Shown here: piece after piece, positions 3,943-63,432 of the stretch
Layout of the letters: the number at the start of each line of letters is the position of its first letter
How positions within the stretch are numbered: the stretch's first letter is position 1
From: Clostridia bacterium
GTDB lineage: Bacteria > Bacillota > Clostridia > Christensenellales > Aristaeellaceae
Length of the DNA: 64,000 nt
Reading direction: 5' to 3'
Assembly: GCA_017429695.1 (NCBI GenBank)
Contig: JAFROK010000018.1
Location: 1-64,000 of the forward strand
Notes under the pieces: model-generated
Told to the model about the DNA's origin: nothing
The model's input: the letters and a program-made list of their open reading frames with translations, nothing else
The model's database searches: none
Made by a program: the position numbers and the translations under genes

Positions 3943-4326
3943 ATGAGTAAGAAAATGAACATGGAAAAACTGCTGGAAAGACAGGCGAAAGTTCTTCAGG
4001 ACAAGCAGCGGATTGAGATCCAGGAACGCGATATCCGGAAAAGGATTGCCGACGAGGAACGCAGGATCAGGACACACCGCTTGTGCACCCGTGGAGGTAT
4101 GCTGGAAACCTATCTTCCTGATCCTGAAAACATTACGAATGATACGGTCGCAACTCTTCTGTCTGGACTGTTCAGTCTGCCGGCTGCAAAGAAGCTGGTT
4201 GCGGAGATTGCTGATCAGTCTGCCGGTATCGTTTCTTCAGATGATTCTGCCACGAATCAGATTGCGGAAATCCCCGAAGATCCGTATGCCGGGTACGAGA
4301 TTGAAGAGCCCGAAGAGGACGAGTGA
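3943..4326 (+). CDS. DUF3847/MobC-like mobilization accessory protein
   Basis: A 127-residue protein, highly charged and helical at the start (KLLERQAKVLQDKQRIEIQE), followed by IRTHRLCTRGGMLETYL. It resembles the small DUF3847-type proteins found before MobL relaxases in clostridial elements, probably relaxosome accessory or DNA-binding proteins. Two in-frame starts each have a Shine-Dalgarno sequence: ATG 3943 with GAGGAGG 7 nt upstream (chosen), and ATG 3910 with GAGGAGG 10 nt upstream, adding 11 residues. The C-terminal third is acidic and probably disordered. The relaxase gene follows after a 377-nt structured gap. Confidence 0.65.
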   Translation: MSKKMNMEKLLERQAKVLQDKQRIEIQERDIRKRIADEERRIRTHRLCTRGGMLETYLPDPENITNDTVATLLSGLFSLPAAKKLVAEIADQSAGIVSSDDSATNQIAEIPEDPYAGYEIEEPEEDE

Positions 4327-4359
4327 TGAACCGACATGAGGCAACCATTTTCAGAGGAG

Positions 4360-4654
4360 GCGCAATTATACGCACTGTATGTGCGTTAATTGCGCTCTCC
4401 GAGGGTCCCTGCGGGAAGCCCGTTGGCTGCAGCATCGCCGCAGCCAACAACAGGGGTACCCCCTGCGCCGATTGCATCGGCTACCCCTCAACCGAAACAT
4501 TTGCCGGTCATTTTTCAGAAAATGATCACCGGCAGTTTCGGTTGATTCGCTCGGATCCATTCTTGTTAATCAGCCCGCAGGCTGATCATTTCCTCGCTCC
4601 TGGCAGATACCTGTTCCCTGATGTTGGGACTTCATTCCCAACACCGGGAACAGG
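4360..4654 (+). other. Array of six consecutive hairpins between the MobC-like and relaxase genes
   Basis: Six inverted repeats follow each other with little gap. (1) 4360-4395: 15 bp with one bulge, loop TGTAT. (2) 4403-4421: GGGTCCC with GGGA-AG-CCC. (3) 4422-4448: GTTGGCTGC/GCAGCCAAC, 9 bp. (4) 4452-4488: AGGGGTA/TACCCCT enclosing GCCGAT-TGC-ATCGGC. (5) 4489-4544: 22 bp in three segments, outer arms CAACCGAAAC and GTTTCGGTTG. (6) 4610-4654: 17 bp, CCTGTTCCC/GGGAACAGG enclosing TGTTGGGA/TCCCAACA; a small 7-bp hairpin (4569-4586) lies before it. The frame is open here, but the relaxase start is clearly at 4704. It could be an origin of transfer, a structured mRNA leader or an ncRNA. Confidence 0.75.
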
Positions 4655-4703
4655 CTTGCAGCAAACTTGTTCTTGTCATGGGCATCTGATCGGAGGTGAT
4701 ACC

Positions 4704-6317
4704 ATGCCCTGTCCCCATTATAGTATCGGCATCGTCAGCAGAGGTCCAGGCGGAACGAGCCATTCCTGTACGGACTCAGCATCCTACCAGTCCGGCGAAA
4801 AGATCTATTCCGAATACGAAGGCGTCTGGCATTCCGGAAAGCATGTTGAGCGTGTCGTTCATACAGATATTCTTCTCCCGCCGAACGCACCGGAGGAATA
4901 CCGGGATCGGTCCGTATTGTGGAACGCGGTTGATGCCAGTGAAAAGTCTTCTGTTGCGCAGACTGCCCGCCGGATTATTGTCGCATTACCCAGGGAATTG
5001 TCTCTGGAAGAGAACATCGCCCTGATTACTGAACACTGTCAGGAGGAATTCGTGGATAAAGGCATGATCGCGGATATCGCCGTTCATATGGAGAATGACG
5101 GAAATCCGCATGCGCATATTCTGTTGACCGTACGTGCCATGGATGAAAACGGAAAATGGCTTCCGAAAACGAAAACTGCTTATCTGTTGGATGAGAATGG
5201 TGAACGGGTCAGGGACGAGAACGGAAAATACAAAAGAATCCGCATGGATACTGTTGACTGGAATCACCAGGATAAGGCAGAACTCTGGCGTCACGCCTGG
5301 GAGGAAAAGCAGAATCTGTATCTCGAAAAAGCCGGCAGTTCAGAACGGGTTGATATGCGTTCCTACAAACGGCAGGGTGTGGAAAAAGTACCACAGCGGC
5401 ATATGGGACCGGCTATTACCGCGATGGAACGAAAAGGCGTAGAAACCGAGATCGGAAACCGGAATCAGAAGATCAGTTCCGGGAATCAAATTCTGACGGA
5501 ACTGCATCGGATTCTGGAAATGATTCTCAGCATTCTGAAAGCCCTGGCGGACATGATCCGGAGCATCAATACCATTGAGAATCCGGAAGAAAAAAGCATT
5601 CGAGATCTGCTGACTGCATACCGTGATTTGCGGGTTCAGGATCTGAAAAACGACAACCTGAATACAGCGGAAGACAGTGAACTGATCGCGTTTGACAATG
5701 CGCTGTCCTTCGTTACCGAACTGGATGTGAAAACCGTCAGTGATCTGGCAATTCACATCAATGATGTGAATGAAAAAATGATTTCACTGCATGATCAGAC
5801 TATTGGAATTGAAAACCGGTTACAGGACATTGACGCTATCCTTCAGGCGGTTCAGACCATCCGGGAAACGAAGCCGGTTTTCGAAGAATACAGCAAGATC
5901 CATTGGGAATCCGCCCGAGCAAAATATCGGGAAAAACATGGGGCTGAAATGGATAAAGCAGTGAAGGCGAAGGAACTGCTGAAAAAGCTTCATGTATCTT
6001 TACCGGTGAATAAAAAAGCCCTGAGTAAGGAAGCCTCTGAGCTGAGGGCAAAGGTTGAATCCATTCATGCGGATCTGAACAGTTACCGGCAGCAGATGAA
6101 TCAGCTGCAGAATCTGCGGAACTGTATCCGTAAAGTGATTCCGGATGCATTACCTCTGAAGGCCCATGATGAAAAAGTATCGTTCCGGGAAATATCTGAA
6201 AAGTTAAACAACCAGAAGAGCCTGGACCGGATGATGGACCGTGTTACGGATCATATTATCCGCCAGGATGAGCACCAGGAAATGGAAAAGGCTGCTCTGC
6301 CGAAGGAGAGAGAATAA
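4704..6317 (+). CDS. MobA/MobL family relaxase
   Basis: A 537-residue protein. The start ATG 4704 has a perfect GGAGGTGAT immediately upstream; the frame is open back to 4323, but that part is the hairpin array. The N-terminal domain begins MPCPHYSIGIVSRG and contains SASYQSGEKIYSE with the candidate catalytic tyrosine. The HUH metal motif is NPHAHILL (about residues 134-141), preceded by IAVHMENDG. VALPRELSLEENIALI is also typical of MobL. After about residue 230 the chain is mostly helical and coiled-coil. The enzyme should nick one strand at oriT and pilot it into a recipient using transfer machinery supplied in trans. Its stop overlaps the next gene start (TAATG). Confidence 0.92.
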   Translation: MPCPHYSIGIVSRGPGGTSHSCTDSASYQSGEKIYSEYEGVWHSGKHVERVVHTDILLPPNAPEEYRDRSVLWNAVDASEKSSVAQTARRIIVALPRELSLEENIALITEHCQEEFVDKGMIADIAVHMENDGNPHAHILLTVRAMDENGKWLPKTKTAYLLDENGERVRDENGKYKRIRMDTVDWNHQDKAELWRHAWEEKQNLYLEKAGSSERVDMRSYKRQGVEKVPQRHMGPAITAMERKGVETEIGNRNQKISSGNQILTELHRILEMILSILKALADMIRSINTIENPEEKSIRDLLTAYRDLRVQDLKNDNLNTAEDSELIAFDNALSFVTELDVKTVSDLAIHINDVNEKMISLHDQTIGIENRLQDIDAILQAVQTIRETKPVFEEYSKIHWESARAKYREKHGAEMDKAVKAKELLKKLHVSLPVNKKALSKEASELRAKVESIHADLNSYRQQMNQLQNLRNCIRKVIPDALPLKAHDEKVSFREISEKLNNQKSLDRMMDRVTDHIIRQDEHQEMEKAALPKERE

Positions 6318-6637
6318 TGATGGATAATGAACAGGAAAAGCGGATGAATACAACTTCCGCCGTAATCATGGAAGAGCCCGAGAGTACCATGTTTGAAGAT
6401 GAAGAAGAATATGTCCCCATTGATCTGTGCACGAACATTGATTATACCGATGAGCCCCCGCCCGGATTCTTTGACTGGTGGGAAGATGACCGGAATCCGT
6501 TTTCTGAAACGATCATCCGGAAGATTGGAAACACCTGGTACAGCATCAGTACCAGTTGCGATGGAACAGAACCGCTGTTCGATAAAGTAAAACGCCTGAT
6601 TCTGAACGATACGGAAACCAAAAAGGAGGGCAGCTGA
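6317..6637 (+). CDS. TnpW-like transposon-encoded protein
   Basis: A 106-residue acidic protein. The C-terminal part, RKIGNTWYSISTSCDG then LFDKVKRLILND, resembles the short TnpW family of clostridial transposons (IGxTxYxVxxxF...DKIxRLI). The first 70 residues are acidic and Pro/Trp-containing (PPPGFFDWWEDD) and match no family I know. It overlaps the relaxase stop by one base and is followed 2 nt later by the recombinase frame, so the three genes are translationally linked. The function of TnpW is not established; a role with the recombinase is inferred only from position. Confidence 0.6.
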   Translation: MMDNEQEKRMNTTSAVIMEEPESTMFEDEEEYVPIDLCTNIDYTDEPPPGFFDWWEDDRNPFSETIIRKIGNTWYSISTSCDGTEPLFDKVKRLILNDTETKKEGS

Positions 6638-6720
6638 GAATGACAAAACAGGCCAGATATGATAATATGAACTCAAGCACTACGGTACTGTCGGCTGATT
6701 CGAAAAAGGAGGATTTAAAC

Positions 6721-8364
6721 ATGGATCAGCAGCAGATTACCGCGTTATATCTTCGGTTAAGTAACGAAGATGACCTCGAAGGCGAGTCGAATTCCATCCA
6801 GAATCAGCGCAGCATGCTGAAGAAGTATGCCGACGACCACGGCTTCAGGAATACCCGTTTCTTTGTGGATGACGGCTATACCGGCACGAATTTCAACCGG
6901 CCTGCGATGCAGGAGATGCTCTCCCTTGTGGATGAAGGACGGATTGGAACGATCATTGTAAAAGACATGAGCCGGTTTGGACGGGACTATCTGCAGGTCG
7001 GACAGTACATTGAAATCGTATTTCCGACGCGGAATGTCCGGTTCATCGCTGTCAATGACGGTGTGGATTCTGAAAAAGGCGACAGTGATTTCACTCCGTT
7101 CAGGAATCTGTTTAACGATTTCTATGCCAAGGATACGAGCAGGAAGGTTCGTTCTGTCCTGCATGCCCGCGGCATGAGCGGAAAGCACATGAACCGCGCA
7201 CCATACGGATACCTGGATGATCCCATGCGGAAAGGCTACTGGATTATCGATCCTGAAACTGCGCCGATTGTGAAGAAGATCTATGATCTGGCGATGGAAG
7301 GAAACGGCGCTACCCGTATTGCTGGCATCCTGGAGCGTGAGCAGATCGAAACCCCGACCACGGTTTATAACCGGCGTCATGGGAAACCGCTGCCGCCGCA
7401 TCCCTGCCACTGGGAAGACGGAACGACAACGGGCATTCTGGACCGCCCGGAATACTATGGCTGTACCTGCAGTTTCAAAACGTACTCCAAGTCCTACAAG
7501 CTGAAAAAGCGTATTCAGAACAAGCCTGAGGACATGTACATCATTGAAAACACGCAGGATGCCATTATCCCGAAGGAGCAGTGGGACAGGGTACAGGAAT
7601 TGCGGAAACTGCGTCACCGCACTCCGAAGAAGGCGGAACGCAAGGGATTGTTCTCCAGTATCATCTTCTGCGCAGATTGCGGAAGGCGGATGCACTTCTG
7701 TTCCTGTAAGAGCTTTGACAGCTCTCAGGACAATTACCGGTGTTCCCTGTACAAGTCCGGTTACGGTGAATGCACAGCGCATTATGTCCGGGAAGAAGTA
7801 TTGCGGAATATCGTCCTGGAGAGAATCCGCACAGTTACGGACTACGTTCGGCTGGATGCCGTCGGATTCCAGGAAGAATGGATGCACATAACCCGCGACG
7901 AGCAGGAGAGAAGCATCCGGCTTGATCAGAAACAACTGGAAAGAGCACAGAAACGTCTGGAAGATGTGGACAGGCTCATTTCCAAAGTGTACGAAGATTA
8001 TGCTCTTAGGAAGCTGCCGGAAGAACGCTATCTGAAAATGACAGCGGATTACGAAAAGGAACAGGAAAGCCTAAGAACAGAAATCTCCGTAATGAGTGAA
8101 CTGATCGAGGAGCAGCAAGAAGAGAACGACAATTATGACCGTTTCTCCGCGCTGATCAACAAGTACGTGGATATTCCCGAACTGACCGGAACCATCGTGA
8201 ATGATTTTATCAAAAAGATTATCGTTCACGCGCCGGACAAGTCCAGCGGAAAACGGAGACAGAAAATCGAGATTATCTTCAACTTTGTGGGTCAGGTAGA
8301 TATCCCGATCCTGACTGAATCAGTAATTCTGGAACCTACGCCGAGGAAGAAGAAAACTGCGTAA
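6721..8364 (+). CDS. Large serine recombinase (TnpX-like)
   Basis: A 547-residue protein. The resolvase domain starts at ALYLRLSNEDD, where the serine (about residue 14) is the expected nucleophile, then IIVKDMSRFGRDYLQVGQY. A recombinase domain follows (APYGYL...), then a zinc ribbon (FCADCGRRMHFCSC and a later cysteine in YRCSLY), and a C-terminal coiled coil (about residues 400-460). It would excise and insert the element by double-strand strand exchange. ATG 6721 has AAGGAGG with 8-nt spacing and puts the catalytic serine at the usual distance. An upstream in-frame ATG (6640) also has AAGGAGGG and would add 27 residues. Confidence 0.93.
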   Translation: MDQQQITALYLRLSNEDDLEGESNSIQNQRSMLKKYADDHGFRNTRFFVDDGYTGTNFNRPAMQEMLSLVDEGRIGTIIVKDMSRFGRDYLQVGQYIEIVFPTRNVRFIAVNDGVDSEKGDSDFTPFRNLFNDFYAKDTSRKVRSVLHARGMSGKHMNRAPYGYLDDPMRKGYWIIDPETAPIVKKIYDLAMEGNGATRIAGILEREQIETPTTVYNRRHGKPLPPHPCHWEDGTTTGILDRPEYYGCTCSFKTYSKSYKLKKRIQNKPEDMYIIENTQDAIIPKEQWDRVQELRKLRHRTPKKAERKGLFSSIIFCADCGRRMHFCSCKSFDSSQDNYRCSLYKSGYGECTAHYVREEVLRNIVLERIRTVTDYVRLDAVGFQEEWMHITRDEQERSIRLDQKQLERAQKRLEDVDRLISKVYEDYALRKLPEERYLKMTADYEKEQESLRTEISVMSELIEEQQEENDNYDRFSALINKYVDIPELTGTIVNDFIKKIIVHAPDKSSGKRRQKIEIIFNFVGQVDIPILTESVILEPTPRKKKTA

Positions 8365-9491: not shown

Positions 9492-10250
9492 TCAGGGTTT
9501 CGGGGTGTTTTTAAGGTCGTACATCATGATGCCGGCGGCTACGGCGGCGTTGAGGGATTCGGCTCCGCCGTACATGGGGAGTTTGAAACGATGGGTGGCG
9601 ATGGATTTGACTTCATCTGAGATGCCGTTGCCTTCATTGCCGACGATGAGGATCAGCGGCGCGGGGACGGGAGCGCGGGCATAGAAGGGTTCGCCATCCA
9701 GCTGGGAGGAGATGACGGAATAACTGCTGCTCCGGAGAGCGGAGAGGGCAACCGGGAGGGACGCGGGGAAGCTGAAGCCGACACGGAAGATGCTGCCCAT
9801 GGTGGCGCGGACAACCTTCGGGGAGAAGATATCCACGCAATCCGGGGAGAGGAGGATGCCGGTGAAGCCGGCGGCATCCGCTGTGCGGATGATGGTGCCC
9901 ATATTGCCGGGATCCTGAATGCCATCGAGGGCCAGGAGAAGGGAACCCTGCAATTCGCGGGCGCGGATTTCCAGGACGGCAGCGATGCCCTGGGGGGTTT
10001 TGGTATCGCAGACGGACTGAAAGACGCTGTCTGACAGGACGTATGCGGGAATTTCGGGCGGTAAGGGGAAGGCAGGGGTGAAGCCTTCGCGGAGGAGGAG
10101 GGTTTGGACCGGGAAGAAGGAACGAAGGGCTTCTTCGACCATTTTGGGGCCTTCGACCAGGAAGGCGTTTTGGGCGTCGCGGGATTTTTTGTCCTTGAGG
10201 GAACGCCAGGAAAGGACTTTGGGGTTGCGGGATGAGGTGATTTGTTCCAT
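9492..10250 (-). CDS. TrmH/SpoU family RNA 2'-O-methyltransferase
   Basis: A 252-residue protein with the three SPOUT motifs: NMGTIIRTADAAGF, IVGNEGNGIS and LNAAVAAGIMMYDL, in the usual C-terminal trefoil-knot order. The N-terminal part (ITSSRNPKVLSWRSLKDKK) matches the substrate-binding domain of RlmB/TsnR-like enzymes, which methylate ribose 2'-OH in 23S rRNA or tRNA with SAM. The exact target cannot be told. AAGGAG lies 5 nt before ATG 10250. The start is 12 nt after the giant gene, which indicates co-transcription. Confidence 0.88.
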   Translation of the reverse strand: MEQITSSRNPKVLSWRSLKDKKSRDAQNAFLVEGPKMVEEALRSFFPVQTLLLREGFTPAFPLPPEIPAYVLSDSVFQSVCDTKTPQGIAAVLEIRARELQGSLLLALDGIQDPGNMGTIIRTADAAGFTGILLSPDCVDIFSPKVVRATMGSIFRVGFSFPASLPVALSALRSSSYSVISSQLDGEPFYARAPVPAPLILIVGNEGNGISDEVKSIATHRFKLPMYGGAESLNAAVAAGIMMYDLKNTPKP

Positions 10251-10262
10251 AAGAACTCCTTT

Positions 10263-13200
10263 TTAAGGAAGGTTGGCCAGGAGGGTGTTGATCCAGGCGG
10301 CCAGGGAGTCGTAGGGGCGCGGGGTTTCGGAGGGGGTGAAGGAAGCGTCTATCGCTTCGGTGAGGATGGCTTCGCCTTGGGGGGTGAAGGGATGGTAATA
10401 ATCCCCGGTGAAGAAATTCGGGAAGAGAAGCTGGGCTTCGCGGGGGAAGACCCGGCAGAAGCGGAGCAGGAATTCGGGGAGGAGTTCCTCCGGGCGGACG
10501 GAAATCGACGCCGGGGCCGCGGAGGAAGGCGGCAGGTCGGGCGTGAGCTCCTGGAGGACGGAAAGGCCAACGGGGATTTCCATCTTCTTTTCCGCGGAGA
10601 AGAGGAGGGACATGGAGGCGACCCGCTTATTGCGGAACATGGTGAGGAAGCGCCAGAGTTCCTTCTTGAGCGCATCCGGCAGGGATTCCAGCAGGAGGGC
10701 GCCGCGGCCGGCAAGGCAGAGGCTCATCTGCTCCGGCAGGAAGTCGTTCTTGGTGGGATCGGCCGCGATCTGCAACAGGACAAGGCCGGTGAGCATCGTG
10801 AGGTAGCTGAGATGCAGGAGGAGAATGGCACCGAAGCGGCTGGTATATCCTGCGGCGCCGAGCTGCTGCAGGGCGCTGATGAGGTCCGTATAATGATCCG
10901 CCAGGAAATGGTCCAGGGCCAGGCGGGCTTTCTGGATGGCGGCGGGATCATTTTTCGCTTCCTCCATGAGGCGGCCGAGGAGGTTCAGATCCGCCTGGAA
11001 GGCCGGATCCGGCCAGGAGCCGAATTCCCGATAGAGCATGGGCGGATCCTGCAGGAGGGCGGGCAGCAGCATATGATGCACACCCAGGGGGATCTGGCAG
11101 GAACGGGCGGCCTGCGGTTTGCCGCGGAGGAAAAGGGAAATATCCGCTGTGACGGCGCCGAGATCCAGAACCATGAAACCGCCGCGGGTATCCTCCCAGG
11201 CACAGAGACGGAAATAGGCGCCTAAGGCGGCGCTTTCCGAAGCGAAGAGCACTTTGGGGGTGAGATCCAGGAAGGAATTGAAGCCGCTTTCCTCCGAGAC
11301 CTGAACAACGAGGCGGTTGAAGAGTGCATGGAGCCCTTCGCGGCCGGTGGCTTTCATTTCATCCGGGACGGCAAAGCGCCAGGACAGATTCCGGACGCCG
11401 TCGACCCGGGCCTGCAGGGCGGTTATGAGCATGACCTGATGGAGGCAGAGCATATCCGTGAAATCGCTTTTATCATCCCGCTTGAGGCAGGTATGCAGGG
11501 AATCGGACGGGACAGGCACCACATCCTGAATACCCTGGGACATAAAGACAATGCCATCCACAAAGGGAACAGGCGAGACACCGGCGTTTTCCCGGAAAAG
11601 GCGGGAAGCGGTCGGCAGCAGCGCGGAAACCGGAACAGCTGGGAGGAATTCCCGGCGCAGGTTTTCCTGGGTGGAGGCCGGATTGTTCAGGAGAATACGG
11701 ACCATGGTCGGTCCCTGCAGGGGTTTGCGGGTTTCGCCGGAAGAAAGCACGACCGACGTGCCGACGGAACCGAAATCGATGCAGGCGGTGACATGGCCGG
11801 CCGGGGTGATTTCCGGCTCGGGCAGGAGATTCGGCAGCGCGCCGACGGTTTTGCCGTCCCGGGCAAAAAGGAAGGCGACCGGGAACTGGCGGAAGGCGGC
11901 GGAACAGCGCCGGTCCGTATCCTCCACGGGGACCGGAACGGACGAACCGGAAGGAAGGACGGAAAGGGAGAACAGTTCCGGCAGATGGGCATATACATAA
12001 TAGGTATGCCAATGCTCCGGACGGAAGGGAACGGAAGGCCAGAGCGCCAGGGTCGGCAGGTCGTGGGCATAGAGGAAGAGGGTTTCCTCTTCGGTATAGG
12101 TCCGGCGGAGGCGCAGGGTGAAGGCACCGTTCAGGGTGAGGGTGACCCGGAAAGAATGGTCATCCGGATGGTCCAGGTGGATGAAATCCGGCTTCAGGAG
12201 CGCACGGCCTTCCGAGGTGGTGCAGATGGCTACGACCAGGGAAGGCGAAAGCGGCGGAAGCACCGCATCCGGCGAAATGGGCGAATCCGGGATCGGCGTG
12301 GCGCCGGTGCCGAAAGGCAAGACAGAGCACATGACGCCGAAATAGGAATCCCCGATGGCATCCTGCCCGCGGGCAGGGAAGACGGCCAGCTGCTCGCTGA
12401 ACGGATCGGCTGCTTCGCTGCCCAGCGTTTCGCCAAGGCATTCCGAGAGAATGGTATGGATGGACGGAGAAGCGGGATTCCAGGGCCAGACAAGCTCCGG
12501 CGTATGATCTGAGAAGGGCTTTTCCGCCTTGTTCAGGATGCGGGTGACAATATCTTTGCTGGTTTCCGAGGCCTCCTGGAAGCGGGAGAGCAGGGCGGCG
12601 GCTTCCTTTGAAAGCACATCGCGGTAATCATCTGAAACACCGGAAAGCGTGCGGCATTCTTCTTCCATGGCATCCAGGGCTTCGTCCTCGCCGGGAGCAT
12701 GGGCGCTTTCCAGGATCCGGCGGGCGTTTTCACGGGCAAAGGGGACGCCGCGCCAGGTATAGAGCACTTCGCCGGGAATATCGTCACAGGGGGCGGAACG
12801 GAAATTGCGGACGCCGGTGAGGCCGGCTGCCACCGGATCGACCCCGAGGAAATGTTCATAGAAACGGGTGATGCGCTTCAGATCATCCTGATAAGCCGGC
12901 AGCTGCTGCAGGGCGCAGACCGCTTTGACCCGGACGGAGAACCGGAGATCCTCCTCATCGGATTCCTGCTTCAGGGCGGACAGGAAGGAGGAAAGGAACG
13001 CTTTCAGCGGCGAACCGTTTTCCTCCGGCCAGGCGGAGAGCATATCCGAGAGGCGGGAGACGAGCAGGGTACGGTCCCCTTCTGAGAGGGAACGGCATGG
13101 ATCGTCAAAGGTGGCTGAATCCCGGCGATACCAGGTGGCAAAGGGCGGGATCAGGTCACGATGGGCCGGCGTGCGGAAGGCCGGCAGGAAGAGACGGCCG

Positions 13201-15407
13201 GGGATGACCACAGCAAAGGGCAGCTTCGCATCCTCATTGGCCAGGGAGAATATCTGAATACCGGTATCATGAAAACCGGAGAGCCAGCAACGGGGCAGGG
13301 TGGCATCGTTACGGAGGTTATCCACGACCAGCTTCGGCTCATCGCTGAGGCGGCGCTTATAATGCGCCAGGAACAGCATGGCCAGGAGGCCGCGGGCTTC
13401 CGATGTTTCACGGGCCGGATCATAGGCTTCCGGGGGCATGAGTTCCAGGAGGTCCGGGATGGACGTGAGCGGGGTTGCGGGCATGATATCCGGAAGGAGC
13501 GTGGCGGCAGGCCAGTCTCCCTGCGGGAGGGACTGTTTAGCGGCCGTGACAGAGGCGCAGACATCCCAGCAGAGGCGGAGCAGGTCCGTGACCGGATTAC
13601 CGGAGGACAGGGGCCGCGGGCGGGAGACCAGGAGCTTCTGGAGGTCTTTTGAATCCGGCAGGATCACATCCCGCAGCAGAATCGGCAGACGATCGCGCAA
13701 CTCACGGCCGGAGGATTCGGTAATCTTCTCTTTGGCAATTTTGCGAATGGCGGAGAATGCCTCATCCGACAGGATGACCTGGGGCGCAGCAGTATCCGGA
13801 ACGGTATCCGGACGCTCCTCCGGGACTACGGAGATACGCAGGTCCGCTTCGCTCTGGGTGACGGCGGAACGCAGGAGGCGGATGCGGCGCTCCTGGAGGG
13901 CGAAGGTGATATGCTCCGTGGTTTCCGGAGAGAGGGCGGCCATTTTTTTCTCCGCCGTTTCCAGGGCATCACGGCACTTCAGGCAGCAATCCCGGCGGGC
14001 CTGCATGGCCCGGAAGGGACCCACGGCCGAAAGGGCATCACTGCGCATTTTTGTTTCTTCTTCCAGCTGCAGGGCCATCTGTTCCAGCTTCTGCTGGAGA
14101 TGCTCCTCTTCCGTATCTTCCATGGATTCCCGGTGGACCGGGCGAACGCCTTCGAGGCCGGATTCCCGGATTTCCGTACGGGTGACATCGATTTCAGAAG
14201 CGACGGTGATATACCTTCCGCAGGCATCGGTGGCTTTCTGCCAGAGCTGCTGGGCTTCATCCGAATAACGGAGGGCAGCAGGAACGGACTGCAGGAAGGC
14301 GGTGAGCTGCTGCAGGAGGGATTTGAGCGTCTGCTCCAGGATATCCAGGGACGCCAGCTGTTTCGGATCCGGGAAGGAGCCGAAAAGGGAACGGAAAAGG
14401 CCGTTGCGGGAATTCGGCAGGGCCCGGATGCGGGAAGGATGGGCCAGGTAGCTGTGGAGCGTCGGGAGGACATCGGAAAGGAGCCAGCAGGAAAACTCAA
14501 TAAAGGCGGCTACATGAACGGCGCGGAATCCGAGGGAAGCCAGGGAAACCGAGCCGGAAGTTTCACAGGTATGGAGGCCGAATGGGACCGGCTGATCCGG
14601 CGCATAGAAGGCACTGAGGGCACGGGCAGCGGCAAAGAACGCGATGCCGTGGGAATCGGCGCCGGAGAGAATCGTGGGTGGCATGGCAATGAGCCAGATG
14701 GCGTCCGCGCCGGAAGGGACGGATTCGGAAGAGGAACGGACCAGGCCGCGGGAAGACAGATCCCGCAGGAAACGGTCGAGGGAGGGATAGAAGGATTCTT
14801 CCACGGGAAAGGTGGTTTCCGCCAGGGCGAAGACGGAGAGGGCCAAATCGCCGGGCAGCGAGGAACGGAGCCAGGGCAGGAGGGCGAAGAGCAGGCCGGC
14901 GGAAAACGGATCGGCCGGATCGCACAGAAGGGCCAGGCGAACGGGGGCGCCGGAGGCAAGAAGGGCGCGGAGATCATCGATCCAGGTGAAGAAGGGATCG
15001 CAGGAACTGTTCGGGCGGTCATTCAGGAGGCAGGCAAAGGCCCATTCGACGACTTCGCGGTCTTTTTTGAAGGAGAGGGGGAGATTTTTGCCGCGGAGGG
15101 CGGAAAGAAGGGCGACAGAATCCGGATCGTCGGCGAAATCCACCTGGGAAGGCAGGATGACTTCGCAGGAAGAAAAGGAAAAACGTGCCGGGAAGGCCGG
15201 CAGGTTTTCGCCGGGGACCGACACGAGATCATGGCAAAGGGAAAGATCATCCATCAGGGCGCCGGCTGATACGACGGCATCCTGCGCAGAGAGATGAAAG
15301 ATATTCAGTTCTGAAACAGGATTGACCGCGCCGCAGGAGAAGGCGGAAACAATGGTCGGCAGCGCCCTTTCCGGGAAGCTGCCGAGGGTTAGCAAGGTGT
15401 TGTTCAA
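10263..15407 (-). CDS. Giant 1714-residue protein with C-terminal actin/Hsp70-like ATPase domain
   Basis: I recognise no named family. Visible parts: an N-terminal alpha/beta region (about 1-350) starting LLTLGSF, with an ordered pattern that recalls tubulin/FtsZ-like proteins but with the glycine-rich loop replaced by CDPADPFSAG (near 156); a charged coiled coil (about 430-530); a long helical middle; and a C-terminal ATPase fold with phosphate-1 motif CIDFGSVGTSVV (near 1210), phosphate-2 motif LDLGAVTADISLF (near 1415) and adenosine motif LAGRGALLLESLP (near 1570). These spacings fit actin/Hsp70. No signal peptide or membrane segment. The start is TTG 15407 with GGAGG 9 nt upstream, 17 nt after galE; an ATG at 15479 would lie inside galE and lacks such a site. 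Probably in the sugar-transferase operon. Confidence 0.85.
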   Translation of the reverse strand: MNNTLLTLGSFPERALPTIVSAFSCGAVNPVSELNIFHLSAQDAVVSAGALMDDLSLCHDLVSVPGENLPAFPARFSFSSCEVILPSQVDFADDPDSVALLSALRGKNLPLSFKKDREVVEWAFACLLNDRPNSSCDPFFTWIDDLRALLASGAPVRLALLCDPADPFSAGLLFALLPWLRSSLPGDLALSVFALAETTFPVEESFYPSLDRFLRDLSSRGLVRSSSESVPSGADAIWLIAMPPTILSGADSHGIAFFAAARALSAFYAPDQPVPFGLHTCETSGSVSLASLGFRAVHVAAFIEFSCWLLSDVLPTLHSYLAHPSRIRALPNSRNGLFRSLFGSFPDPKQLASLDILEQTLKSLLQQLTAFLQSVPAALRYSDEAQQLWQKATDACGRYITVASEIDVTRTEIRESGLEGVRPVHRESMEDTEEEHLQQKLEQMALQLEEETKMRSDALSAVGPFRAMQARRDCCLKCRDALETAEKKMAALSPETTEHITFALQERRIRLLRSAVTQSEADLRISVVPEERPDTVPDTAAPQVILSDEAFSAIRKIAKEKITESSGRELRDRLPILLRDVILPDSKDLQKLLVSRPRPLSSGNPVTDLLRLCWDVCASVTAAKQSLPQGDWPAATLLPDIMPATPLTSIPDLLELMPPEAYDPARETSEARGLLAMLFLAHYKRRLSDEPKLVVDNLRNDATLPRCWLSGFHDTGIQIFSLANEDAKLPFAVVIPGRLFLPAFRTPAHRDLIPPFATWYRRDSATFDDPCRSLSEGDRTLLVSRLSDMLSAWPEENGSPLKAFLSSFLSALKQESDEEDLRFSVRVKAVCALQQLPAYQDDLKRITRFYEHFLGVDPVAAGLTGVRNFRSAPCDDIPGEVLYTWRGVPFARENARRILESAHAPGEDEALDAMEEECRTLSGVSDDYRDVLSKEAAALLSRFQEASETSKDIVTRILNKAEKPFSDHTPELVWPWNPASPSIHTILSECLGETLGSEAADPFSEQLAVFPARGQDAIGDSYFGVMCSVLPFGTGATPIPDSPISPDAVLPPLSPSLVVAICTTSEGRALLKPDFIHLDHPDDHSFRVTLTLNGAFTLRLRRTYTEEETLFLYAHDLPTLALWPSVPFRPEHWHTYYVYAHLPELFSLSVLPSGSSVPVPVEDTDRRCSAAFRQFPVAFLFARDGKTVGALPNLLPEPEITPAGHVTACIDFGSVGTSVVLSSGETRKPLQGPTMVRILLNNPASTQENLRREFLPAVPVSALLPTASRLFRENAGVSPVPFVDGIVFMSQGIQDVVPVPSDSLHTCLKRDDKSDFTDMLCLHQVMLITALQARVDGVRNLSWRFAVPDEMKATGREGLHALFNRLVVQVSEESGFNSFLDLTPKVLFASESAALGAYFRLCAWEDTRGGFMVLDLGAVTADISLFLRGKPQAARSCQIPLGVHHMLLPALLQDPPMLYREFGSWPDPAFQADLNLLGRLMEEAKNDPAAIQKARLALDHFLADHYTDLISALQQLGAAGYTSRFGAILLLHLSYLTMLTGLVLLQIAADPTKNDFLPEQMSLCLAGRGALLLESLPDALKKELWRFLTMFRNKRVASMSLLFSAEKKMEIPVGLSVLQELTPDLPPSSAAPASISVRPEELLPEFLLRFCRVFPREAQLLFPNFFTGDYYHPFTPQGEAILTEAIDASFTPSETPRPYDSLAAWINTLLANLP

Positions 15408-15424
15408 GAGTATGAACCTCCGGT

Positions 15425-16441
15425 TCAGGTATGGTAGCCTTTCGGGTTTTGGCTCTGGAAGCGGTAGGTGTCGCGGCACATGTCCTCGAGGTTCTTTTCA
15501 GCTTCCCAGCCCAGGAGGGCTTTGGCCTTGGACGGGTCGGCATAGTTTTCGGCAATGTCGCCGGGGCGGCGGGGGGCAATGACATAGGGGACGTTGACGT
15601 TATTCACCTTCATGAAGGTGTTGACCAGGTCCAGGACGGAATATCCGTGGCCGGTGCCGAGGTTGATGATTTCGCTGCCGGTATGGCCGGCCGCGTAATC
15701 GCAGGCTTTGACATGGCCGCGGGCCAAGTCGACCACATGGATGTAGTCCCGGACGCCGGTGCCGTCGGGCGTCGGATAGTCATTGCCGAAGACGGAGAGC
15801 TGTTTCAGCTCGCCGACGGCGACCTTGGCGACATAAGGCATGAGGTTATTCGGGATGCCGGAGGGATCCTCGCCGATGAGGCCGGATTCATGGGCGCCGA
15901 TGGGGTTGAAATAACGGAGGAGGACAACGCTCCATTCCGGATCGGCTACGGTCTGGCCCTCGAGGATTTTCTCGATCATGTATTTGGTCCAGCCGTAGGG
16001 GTTGGTGCAGCCGAGGGACTGCATATCCTCCCGGTAGGGCACTTCGGGCTGGTTGCCGTAGACCGTTGCGGAGGAAGAGAAGACGATCTTTTTGACACCA
16101 TGGGCCTGCATGGTTTCGCAGAGGGTGAGGGTGGTGTCGAGATTGTTGCGGTAATAACGCAGCGGCTGGGAGACGCTTTCGCCGACGGCTTTGAGGCCGG
16201 CAAAGTGGATGACGCAGTCGAAGGCGTTTTCATCGAAGATGCGGTTCATCGCCTCGCGGTCGGAAACGTCGGCTTCGTACAGCGGGACGGAGCGGCCGAC
16301 GATCTTTTCGATGCGGCGGACGGACTCGGCGGAGCTGTTGATGAAGTTGTCGACGATGACGGGGGTGTGGCCGGCGTTGATGAGTTCGACGCAGGTATGG
16401 GAGCCGATGAAGCCGGCCCCGCCGGTGAGAAGTATTTTCAT
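15425..16441 (-). CDS. galE: UDP-glucose 4-epimerase
   Basis: A 338-residue short-chain dehydrogenase-type epimerase. The NAD-binding GGAGFIGSH is at the N-terminus, and the YxxxK catalytic pair is in YGWTKYM (about residue 150). RYFNPIGAHESGLIGEDP and GTGVRDYIHVVDLA are GalE signatures. It interconverts UDP-glucose and UDP-galactose (or the N-acetyl forms). It sits after a sugar nucleotidyltransferase and a sugar-phosphate transferase, which suggests supply of UDP-sugars for a surface glycan. Its stop is 17 nt before the TTG start of the giant gene. The length matches the family. Confidence 0.95.
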   Translation of the reverse strand: MKILLTGGAGFIGSHTCVELINAGHTPVIVDNFINSSAESVRRIEKIVGRSVPLYEADVSDREAMNRIFDENAFDCVIHFAGLKAVGESVSQPLRYYRNNLDTTLTLCETMQAHGVKKIVFSSSATVYGNQPEVPYREDMQSLGCTNPYGWTKYMIEKILEGQTVADPEWSVVLLRYFNPIGAHESGLIGEDPSGIPNNLMPYVAKVAVGELKQLSVFGNDYPTPDGTGVRDYIHVVDLARGHVKACDYAAGHTGSEIINLGTGHGYSVLDLVNTFMKVNNVNVPYVIAPRRPGDIAENYADPSKAKALLGWEAEKNLEDMCRDTYRFQSQNPKGYHT

Positions 16442-62220: not shown

Positions 62221-63432
62221 TTACCAGGAGGCGTTCATAGCTTCGCGGACGCACTGCTGATGCATATCGTCCACTTTGCCGGAGCCGTGGGTTTTGCTCT
62301 TATAGAAATGAATACAGAAATGTCCGTCGAAATTATTGTTGGAAATCGTGGAGGTGCCGTGGGGCATACCGTTCATGGAGCCGGCATACACATGGCCGTT
62401 ATATTTGACCAGGACCGGACGGCGGCGCCAGCTCCAATGACCGTAGATGCTCTTGAGGATTTTGGTATCGGAAGCGGTTTTCGGTTCGGCGTCGATATGG
62501 TTGTAACCGCTCCAGCGCTTGACGGTGAATACCTTGCCGGTTCGGACATCCTTGACCTGGAAGGTGGCGCCCTTCGGGATGATGTTCTTGCCGCCGTTGA
62601 ACCAGTCCAGGCGTTCGGTTTTTCCGCTGCCGGAGGAGGCTTTTTTCGCATCGGAGCTGTTGAGCTTCTTCAGGGTGGCGGAATTAACTTCGCCGGTTTC
62701 CTTCAGGCCGTTTCTTTTCTGGAAGGCCTTGACTGCGGACTTGGTGCCGTTGCCGTAATCCCCGTCGATGGAGCTGTCGTAATAGCCGAGGGACTTCAGC
62801 TTTTTCTGGACCTTTTTGACCGCTTCGCCGGTATCGCCGGGTTTGCAGGTGCCGTCGGAAGAACCACTGCTCTTGGAAGAGGAAGAAGAGGAGGAAGCCT
62901 TTTTCGCATCGGAGCTGTTGAGCTTCTTCAGGGTGGCGGAATTGACTTCGCCGGTTTCCTTGAGGCCGTTTCTTTTCTGGAAAGCCTTGACCGCAGATTT
63001 GGTGCCATTGCCATAATCGCCGTCGATGGAGCTATCGTAATAACCCAGGGACTTCAGCTTTTTCTGGACCTTTTTGACCGCTTCGCCGGTGTCGCCGGGT
63101 TTGCATGTTCCGTTTGAAGACGAAGAGGAAGAATTCTTTGATGAACTATTATTGGAAGAAGAGGAGTTTCCTCCTTTGGAAACAGAAACATATTTTTTGC
63201 CCACATATCCGGTTTTTCCGTTGACCGTTACTTTATACCAGCTGCCGGAAGTGCCGTTGATGGTGACTTTGGTGCCTTCCTTCAGGACTTTGATGACGTC
63301 GCTGTCCGTGGAGGCGGCTTTACGCATATTCAGGGAACTGGCAGTCACGGTTCCGGTATCCGCCAGGGCGAAAACAAAAGGAATCAGACAGAGGAGCAGC
63401 ACGACCAGGACGGCAAAATGCCACCGTTTCAC
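62221..63432 (-). CDS. Exported SH3 and double peptidoglycan-binding protein with possible L,D-transpeptidase-like end
   Basis: 403 residues. A signal peptide (FAVLVVLLLCLIPFVFALA) is followed by an SH3b repeat (SLNMRKAASTDSDVIKVLKE), a Ser-rich linker, two near-identical PGB_1 domains (KPGDTGEAVKKVQKKLKSLG), and a C-terminal domain of about 130 residues. The latter has NGMPHGTSTISNNNFDGHFCIHF, close to the H-G-x...H-G-C pattern of YkuD L,D-transpeptidases but with HFC instead of HGC. Cell-wall binding is certain; catalysis is an open question. Confidence 0.82.
   Translation of the reverse strand: MKRWHFAVLVVLLLCLIPFVFALADTGTVTASSLNMRKAASTDSDVIKVLKEGTKVTINGTSGSWYKVTVNGKTGYVGKKYVSVSKGGNSSSSNNSSSKNSSSSSSNGTCKPGDTGEAVKKVQKKLKSLGYYDSSIDGDYGNGTKSAVKAFQKRNGLKETGEVNSATLKKLNSSDAKKASSSSSSSKSSGSSDGTCKPGDTGEAVKKVQKKLKSLGYYDSSIDGDYGNGTKSAVKAFQKRNGLKETGEVNSATLKKLNSSDAKKASSGSGKTERLDWFNGGKNIIPKGATFQVKDVRTGKVFTVKRWSGYNHIDAEPKTASDTKILKSIYGHWSWRRRPVLVKYNGHVYAGSMNGMPHGTSTISNNNFDGHFCIHFYKSKTHGSGKVDDMHQQCVREAMNASW

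Follow-up and report, generated by a model that had tools for sequence, protein, structure and literature searches.

The DNA analysed here (hereafter the window) is a stretch of 64,000 nt from contig JAFROK010000018.1 of a Clostridia bacterium (assembly GCA_017429695.1). Its minus strand carries, from 15407 to 10263, an open reading frame (ORF) of 1714 residues that joins a tubulin-like front half to an actin/Hsp70-like back half. A first-pass annotation made from the letters alone had already proposed this ORF, leaving its strand unnamed, and both what it observed and how it read the structure hold up. The gene starts with a TTG codon and is present as a single copy in the genome. The features of the locus are as follows, with residues numbered along the window protein.

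10263..15407, minus: fused pseudo-tubulin / actin-Hsp70-like gene, 1714 aa plus stop
14508..15407, minus: residues 1-300, tubulin/FtsZ-like fold (structure prediction, fold search, profile match)
15369..15386, minus: residues 8-13, LGSFPE, where intact relatives have a T1 loop of GGTGNK type
14895..14924, minus: residues 162-171, CDPADPFSAG, where the T4 loop of intact relatives reads FGGTGASG
13818..14507, minus: residues 301-530, helical tail with homology to that of the separately encoded tubulin
14103..14141, minus: residues 423-435, P-V-H-R-(x4)-D-T-x-E-E motif in a coil predicted with low confidence
11802..13772, minus: residues 546-1202, middle region, helical at first and beta-rich further on; most of it has homology to the N-terminal part of the separately encoded ATPase
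11802..12155: residues about 1085-1202, beta-rich stretch preceding the ATPase domain
10527..11801, minus: residues 1203-1627, actin/MreB/Hsp70-like ATPase domain (predicted structure and fold search)
11754..11777, minus: residues 1211-1218, DFGSVGTS, phosphate-1 motif
11142..11168, minus: residues 1414-1422, LDLGAVTAD, phosphate-2 motif
10695..10712, minus: residues 1566-1571, AGRGAL, adenosine motif
15417..15421, minus: GGAGG, ribosome-binding-like, nine bases 5' of the TTG start
15425..16441, minus: galE-like gene adjoining the fused gene upstream; no functional link is implied
9492..10250, minus: trmH-like rRNA methyltransferase gene adjoining the fused gene downstream

The tubulin-like nature of the front half, as first proposed, is borne out by agreement between its predicted structure, the fold search and a profile comparison. 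Residues 1-560 were modelled with a predicted local distance difference test score (pLDDT) of 85 and a predicted template modelling score (pTM) of 0.82, and the model has the tubulin nucleotide-binding-domain fold that defines the FtsZ/tubulin superfamily. The 45 best VIA rows of the fold search were all FtsZ/tubulin entries or tubulin-containing complexes. Alignment with hhalign to a profile of Tubulin_2-type tubulins encoded by separate genes (the split form, described below) gave a probability of 99.8 and an expectation value (E) of 8e-28 over 550 columns, the tail included; a control profile in the same comparison reached a probability of 0.1. In the fused rows, G9 is the sole survivor of the T1 glycines and the glycine-rich T4 signature (GGGTG(S/T)G-type) is gone, CDPADPFSAG of the window aligning with the T4 loop of the split relatives. 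The loss of a glycine-rich loop had been noticed before, and this motif loss argues against GTP binding by the front half, consistent with the earlier suggestion that it is probably inactive. Another segment of this half is invariant: P423, V424, H425, R426, D431, T432, E434 and E435 are identical in 32 of the 32 other rows, in a coil with a pLDDT of about 58. The segment has a counterpart at locus L103 (TVHRHDMEDNEAEK), leaves weak traces only at L031 and L104, and finds no counterpart in the aligned intact split tubulins. Residues 423-435 are a possible docking peptide.

Structure prediction and homology likewise uphold the actin/Hsp70-like reading of the back half. Residues 546-1714 were predicted with a pLDDT of 83.6, and the resulting fold search, dominated by matches to the ATPase domain, is headed by MreB, FtsA, DnaK and actin. 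Phosphate-1, phosphate-2 and adenosine motifs follow one another in the order announced by the first-pass annotation, at D1211, D1415 and G1567; their spacings are 204 and 152 residues, close to the 205 and 155 given there. With this fold and these ordered motifs the back half belongs to the MreB/FtsA/actin/Hsp70 (ASKHA) superfamily, although here the ATPase domain is preceded by a tubulin and by a conserved stretch some 650 residues long. Phosphate-binding residues are conserved among the homologues: D1211, G1213, D1415 and G1417 are identical in 32 of the 32 other rows, D1422 is kept in 31 of 32 and K1309 in 28, and G1567-R1568-G1569 in 31 of 32, the remaining row being gapped. Against profile A4 of the split ATPases, which includes the window row itself, the back half scored a probability of 100 over 1013 columns. 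A Pfam scan of the window protein gave no match to the MreB family (PF06723). An Hsp70 chaperone was ruled out, the approximately 85 mostly helical residues that trail the ATPase domain in the predicted structure being too few for a substrate-binding domain. SrfB was also set aside as a candidate, as no SrfB family occurs among the Pfam matches of the window protein or of the five split ATPases scanned. In the beta-rich stretch ahead of the ATPase domain (residues about 1085-1202), conserved W-P and W/Y positions were noticed, split relatives included.

A search with the fused protein matched 43 of 100 genomes: the own genome, 37 of the 44 others of the genus, four of the same family and one of the same order. 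The seven genus genomes that gave no match are 60-83% complete, and all 13 other genus genomes at least 91% complete carry the protein. A scan of named genomes yielded 32 fused loci assigned to uncultured Clostridiales, Clostridia or Lachnospiraceae, many of them sampled from the gut of ruminants or horses, and a scan of viral contigs with the fused protein as query revealed no relatives. Alignment A1 holds the same architecture in 32 sequences, the window included, of which the other 31 are 33-49% identical to the window protein. This shared architecture, the invariant ATP-site residues and the 37 positive genus genomes place the fusion beyond chance.

Outside the genus, the two halves are encoded by adjacent genes in 17 genomes, found with the whole protein or ATPase-half profiles as queries. 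A first survey contributed G046, G052, G057, G058 and G081; a survey of the order, in which 19 of 396 genomes matched (own and genus counted), added nine more; G521 and G703 came from a survey with three matches in 391 genomes (own counted), and G1057 was the sole match besides the own genome among the 378 of a phylum survey. G703 alone matches among the 13 genomes of its family. In all 17 split loci the two ORFs share a strand, and the one for the tubulin-like protein immediately precedes the one for the ATPase. At L115 the tubulin reads as two pieces, and that of L033 was recognised only through its similarity to the tubulins of L103, L031 and L104. We also observed that the ATPase gene of L033:7416-10625 (G046) runs in several frames beside this decayed tubulin, a possible pseudogene or assembly error. 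Among 11 split tubulins scanned, a set that does not contain the decayed tubulins of L031, L033 and L103, ten matched Tubulin_2 (PF13809, E 0.01) and six the Tubulin GTPase model; one of five split ATPases scanned passed the MreB_Mbl (PF06723) cut-off (L138, E 9.6e-7). That the protein combines the two folds, and that each half descends from one member of such a gene pair, we regard as practically certain.

A lipoprotein-like gene precedes the pair in 13 of the 17 split loci; none lies within the available DNA of L031, L033, L103 and L104, the contig of L103 stopping inside galE. Most of seven aligned rows have a lipobox-like Cys followed by D-x-T/S-x-x-M-x-G and LSxIxTD, motifs of the type given for vWA domains (PMC2875224). 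Judged by motif, the vWA-type partners that the first-pass annotation proposed to look for may recur in the split relatives. Pfam VWA matched none of eight such proteins scanned, and profiles of the split tubulins, the ATPases and the lipoproteins (six rows for the last) gave no significant match to sequences of solved structures. The lipoprotein profile, searched in the window genome and all split genomes except G1057 (17 in total), was strong in six, weak in the three f23 genomes and at 9.7e-4 in G285; it missed seven, among them the window genome as well as G424, G521 and G703, which carry such a gene by position. In the genus it found none among 37 genomes, own counted. In most split loci a small hydrophobic ORF follows the lipoprotein-like gene. 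At L116 there follow MotA/ExbB-like and OmpA-like genes, slightly below Pfam cut-offs, which PADLOC, run on L116 only of the 17 split loci, calls ZorA (E 3e-11) and ZorB (E 5e-19); they lie at L116:11499-13971 (G703), within the apparent tubulin/ATPase operon, and an ORF of 1139 aa comes after them. L116 hints that Zorya-type motors and FtsZl1-type systems may be connected. As a separate observation, a large ORF lies close downstream of the pair in three f23 loci (L035:2405-6532, L109:11321-15598 and L110:9375-11207); Sel1 repeats and NPCBM were recognised in the L035 copy, which the other two resemble by BLAST.

The closest described systems are those of FtsZl1 (FtsZ-like 1; Tubulin_2, PF13809), for which vWA, GTPase, kinase and OmpA partners are described (Makarova and Koonin 2010; PMC2875224). 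Shared traits are an N-terminal domain of tubulin type with a long helical tail behind it, operons that include vWA, OmpA-type and membrane proteins (here partly, in the split relatives), and a patchy distribution beside a canonical FtsZ in the same genome; the window genome has one PF00091 match, taken as that FtsZ. The link rests on the PF13809 matches of the split tubulins and on an hhalign comparison of these tubulins with an alignment led by canonical FtsZl1 (five canonical rows plus L116), in which homology runs along the domain (probability 97.9, 203 columns). PF13809 matches neither the window protein nor anything else in its genome. The present systems differ in that the partner is an MreB/Hsp70-like ATPase, and in that tubulin and ATPase form one chain, its GTP loop lost, in the genus of the window. 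In the parts of PMC2875224 consulted such a partner goes unmentioned; in its text 'hsp70' is absent and 'actin' appears only in a general sense, within 'actinobacteria' or in references. The text of a second study, in which Tubulin_2 proteins are treated as divergent and as the root of the tree, has neither word (PMC9871819). A profile and motif search revealed no such ATPase near the canonical FtsZl1 loci L129-L133, which come from five of the seven genomes in the class that match PF13809 strongly; by eye, L134 was put aside as an apparent chance match to PF13809 and L135 as an apparent ordinary FtsZ. The likeness to Zorya consists of the ZorA- and ZorB-like genes of L116 alone, whereas neither gene was recognised at the window locus.

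At T4, GGTG is kept in 14 of the 17 split tubulins (L032, L034, L035, L104-L111, L115, L116 and L138) and lost in L031, L033, L103 and the fused rows. In a tree of 25 rows (ten fused, 15 split; L033 and L138 left out), whose outer branches are in part long and insecurely joined, the fused rows group at 100/100, their sister is L103 plus L104 (95/91), and L031 comes next. For the eight closest pairs, the ratio of nonsynonymous to synonymous substitution rates (dN/dS) lies between 0.12 and 0.23 in residues 1-300 and between 0.02 and 0.11 in the ATPase domain, rough values as several pairs have a dS above 1 and some members are common to several pairs. Purifying selection acts on both halves, and the low ratio of residues 1-300 implies that the tubulin half is maintained.

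We consider it reasonably probable that the protein descends, fused and streamlined, from a machine of two proteins, a tubulin of FtsZl1/Tubulin_2 type and an MreB/Hsp70-like ATPase, whose genes lie next to each other. ATP binding and hydrolysis would open and close the C-terminal domain, the sole remaining engine, and the N-terminal pseudo-tubulin, its GTP cycling gone, would serve as a fixed docking platform. Inactive NTPase relatives act as docking scaffolds in other families. The strongest clue to docking is the invariant P423-V-H-R plus D431-T-x-E434-E435 segment, whose docking site may be the ATPase half or a partner protein. On balance, and by a small measure, we favour such a dead tubulin scaffold with an ATP engine. 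The split operons, with a vWA-like lipoprotein, a small membrane protein, tubulin and ATPase, and with ZorA/ZorB-like motor proteins in one of them, hint at a platform on the cytoplasmic side of a cell-envelope complex. The fused form would operate without the lipoprotein and probably organise an envelope process from the cytoplasm. This envelope role is put forward tentatively; it draws on the split operons, with their genes for lipoprotein-like and membrane proteins, and on what has been proposed in print for FtsZl1 systems.

Several results weigh against this interpretation. Foldseek alone gave no match for residues 1-560 at E 0.001, its best tubulin row for the front half being weak (E 6e-3, TM scores 0.26/0.41), and Pfam and NCBIfam scans of the whole fused protein produced chance-level matches only. 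At E 5, the five canonical FtsZl1 loci escaped the split-tubulin hidden Markov model (A5). GGTG persists at T4 in L104 of the sister genus, so that the loop must have been lost more than once or stepwise, and the roughness of the dN/dS values counts here too. Residues about 1525-1549 reach a 19-residue hydropathy of up to 2.08, above the usual transmembrane cut-off; the stretch is a helix within the predicted ATPase fold. Finally, catalysis by the ATPase half, which we take from its motifs, the docking role and the envelope role are all inferences.

Alternatively, the MreB-like half could polymerise with ATP into a cytomotive filament that the tubulin half decorates or caps. The closest solved folds of the back half are indeed filament formers (MreB, FtsA, MamK, ParM and actin), but DnaK (16.7) and EutJ (16.2), neither of them to our knowledge a filament former, nearly equal the 17.9 reached in the same fold search; moreover, the 1200-residue extension ahead of the ATPase domain might crowd a filament, and polymerisation does not follow from fold alone. 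We hold this explanation unlikely.

The first-pass annotation had guessed at a role in organising surface-glycan synthesis or export, from the adjoining genes, which we take to be galE and trmH. The gaps are as it gave them, 17 nt to the galE stop (15425) and 12 nt to the trmH start (10250), and galE is indeed the neighbour; an NTP-transferase-like gene sits between galE and the sugar transferase. A neighbourhood survey found NTP transferase, sugar transferase and galE near 20, 17 and 14 of the 32 fused loci, respectively, and glycan genes upstream in 18 of the 25 with about 10 kb of upstream DNA. None of the three occurs in the other seven (L058, L061, L066, L067, L069, L073 and L078), though a trmH homologue lies downstream in 31 of 32 loci, the contig of L073 ending first. 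At E 1e-8 the neighbours of the window recur, within the available DNA, in just two of the 17 split loci, L103 and L104, both of one sister genus, which shares the galE side and trmH. This pattern fits gene order inherited within the clade rather than functional evidence; the glycan guess is weak and its truth quite improbable. Elsewhere in the window we noticed by eye relaxase-like and serine-recombinase-like ORFs close together at 4323-8364, probably the edge of a mobile element, and at 62221-63432 (minus) a secreted-looking protein with two near-identical tandem peptidoglycan-binding-like repeats.

A part in anti-phage defence is suggested by the ZorA and ZorB matches near the pair of L116, but the fused protein has no PADLOC match at E 0.01 and occurs in all the most complete genomes of the genus beside housekeeping-type genes, which makes such a part very unlikely. 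A generic Rossmann-type fold for the front half, as nucleoside hydrolases and InhA among the best Foldseek rows might suggest, is barely credible given the profile match to separate tubulins.

We know of no natural protein with both cytoskeletal folds in one chain, and a literature search, with most subscription papers beyond reach, returned no report of a tubulin/actin-like fusion or of the gene pair. New here are the actin-like partner of an FtsZl1-type tubulin, the fusion and the loss of the GTP loop; what the protein does is inferred. The fuller picture, of a single-chain tubulin/actin hybrid in which a dead tubulin scaffolds an actin-like ATP engine, and of an undescribed class of envelope machines (vWA-like lipoprotein, membrane protein, tubulin, actin-like ATPase) with an obligate tubulin/actin-type NTPase pair, is one that we entertain without yet favouring it. 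The family offers a natural series, from the intact pair through a decayed tubulin that is still split to a decayed tubulin that is fused, which makes it testable what a tubulin does for its actin-like partner once GTP is dispensable, and suggests that at least some uncharacterised FtsZl1-type systems have an actin-like partner.
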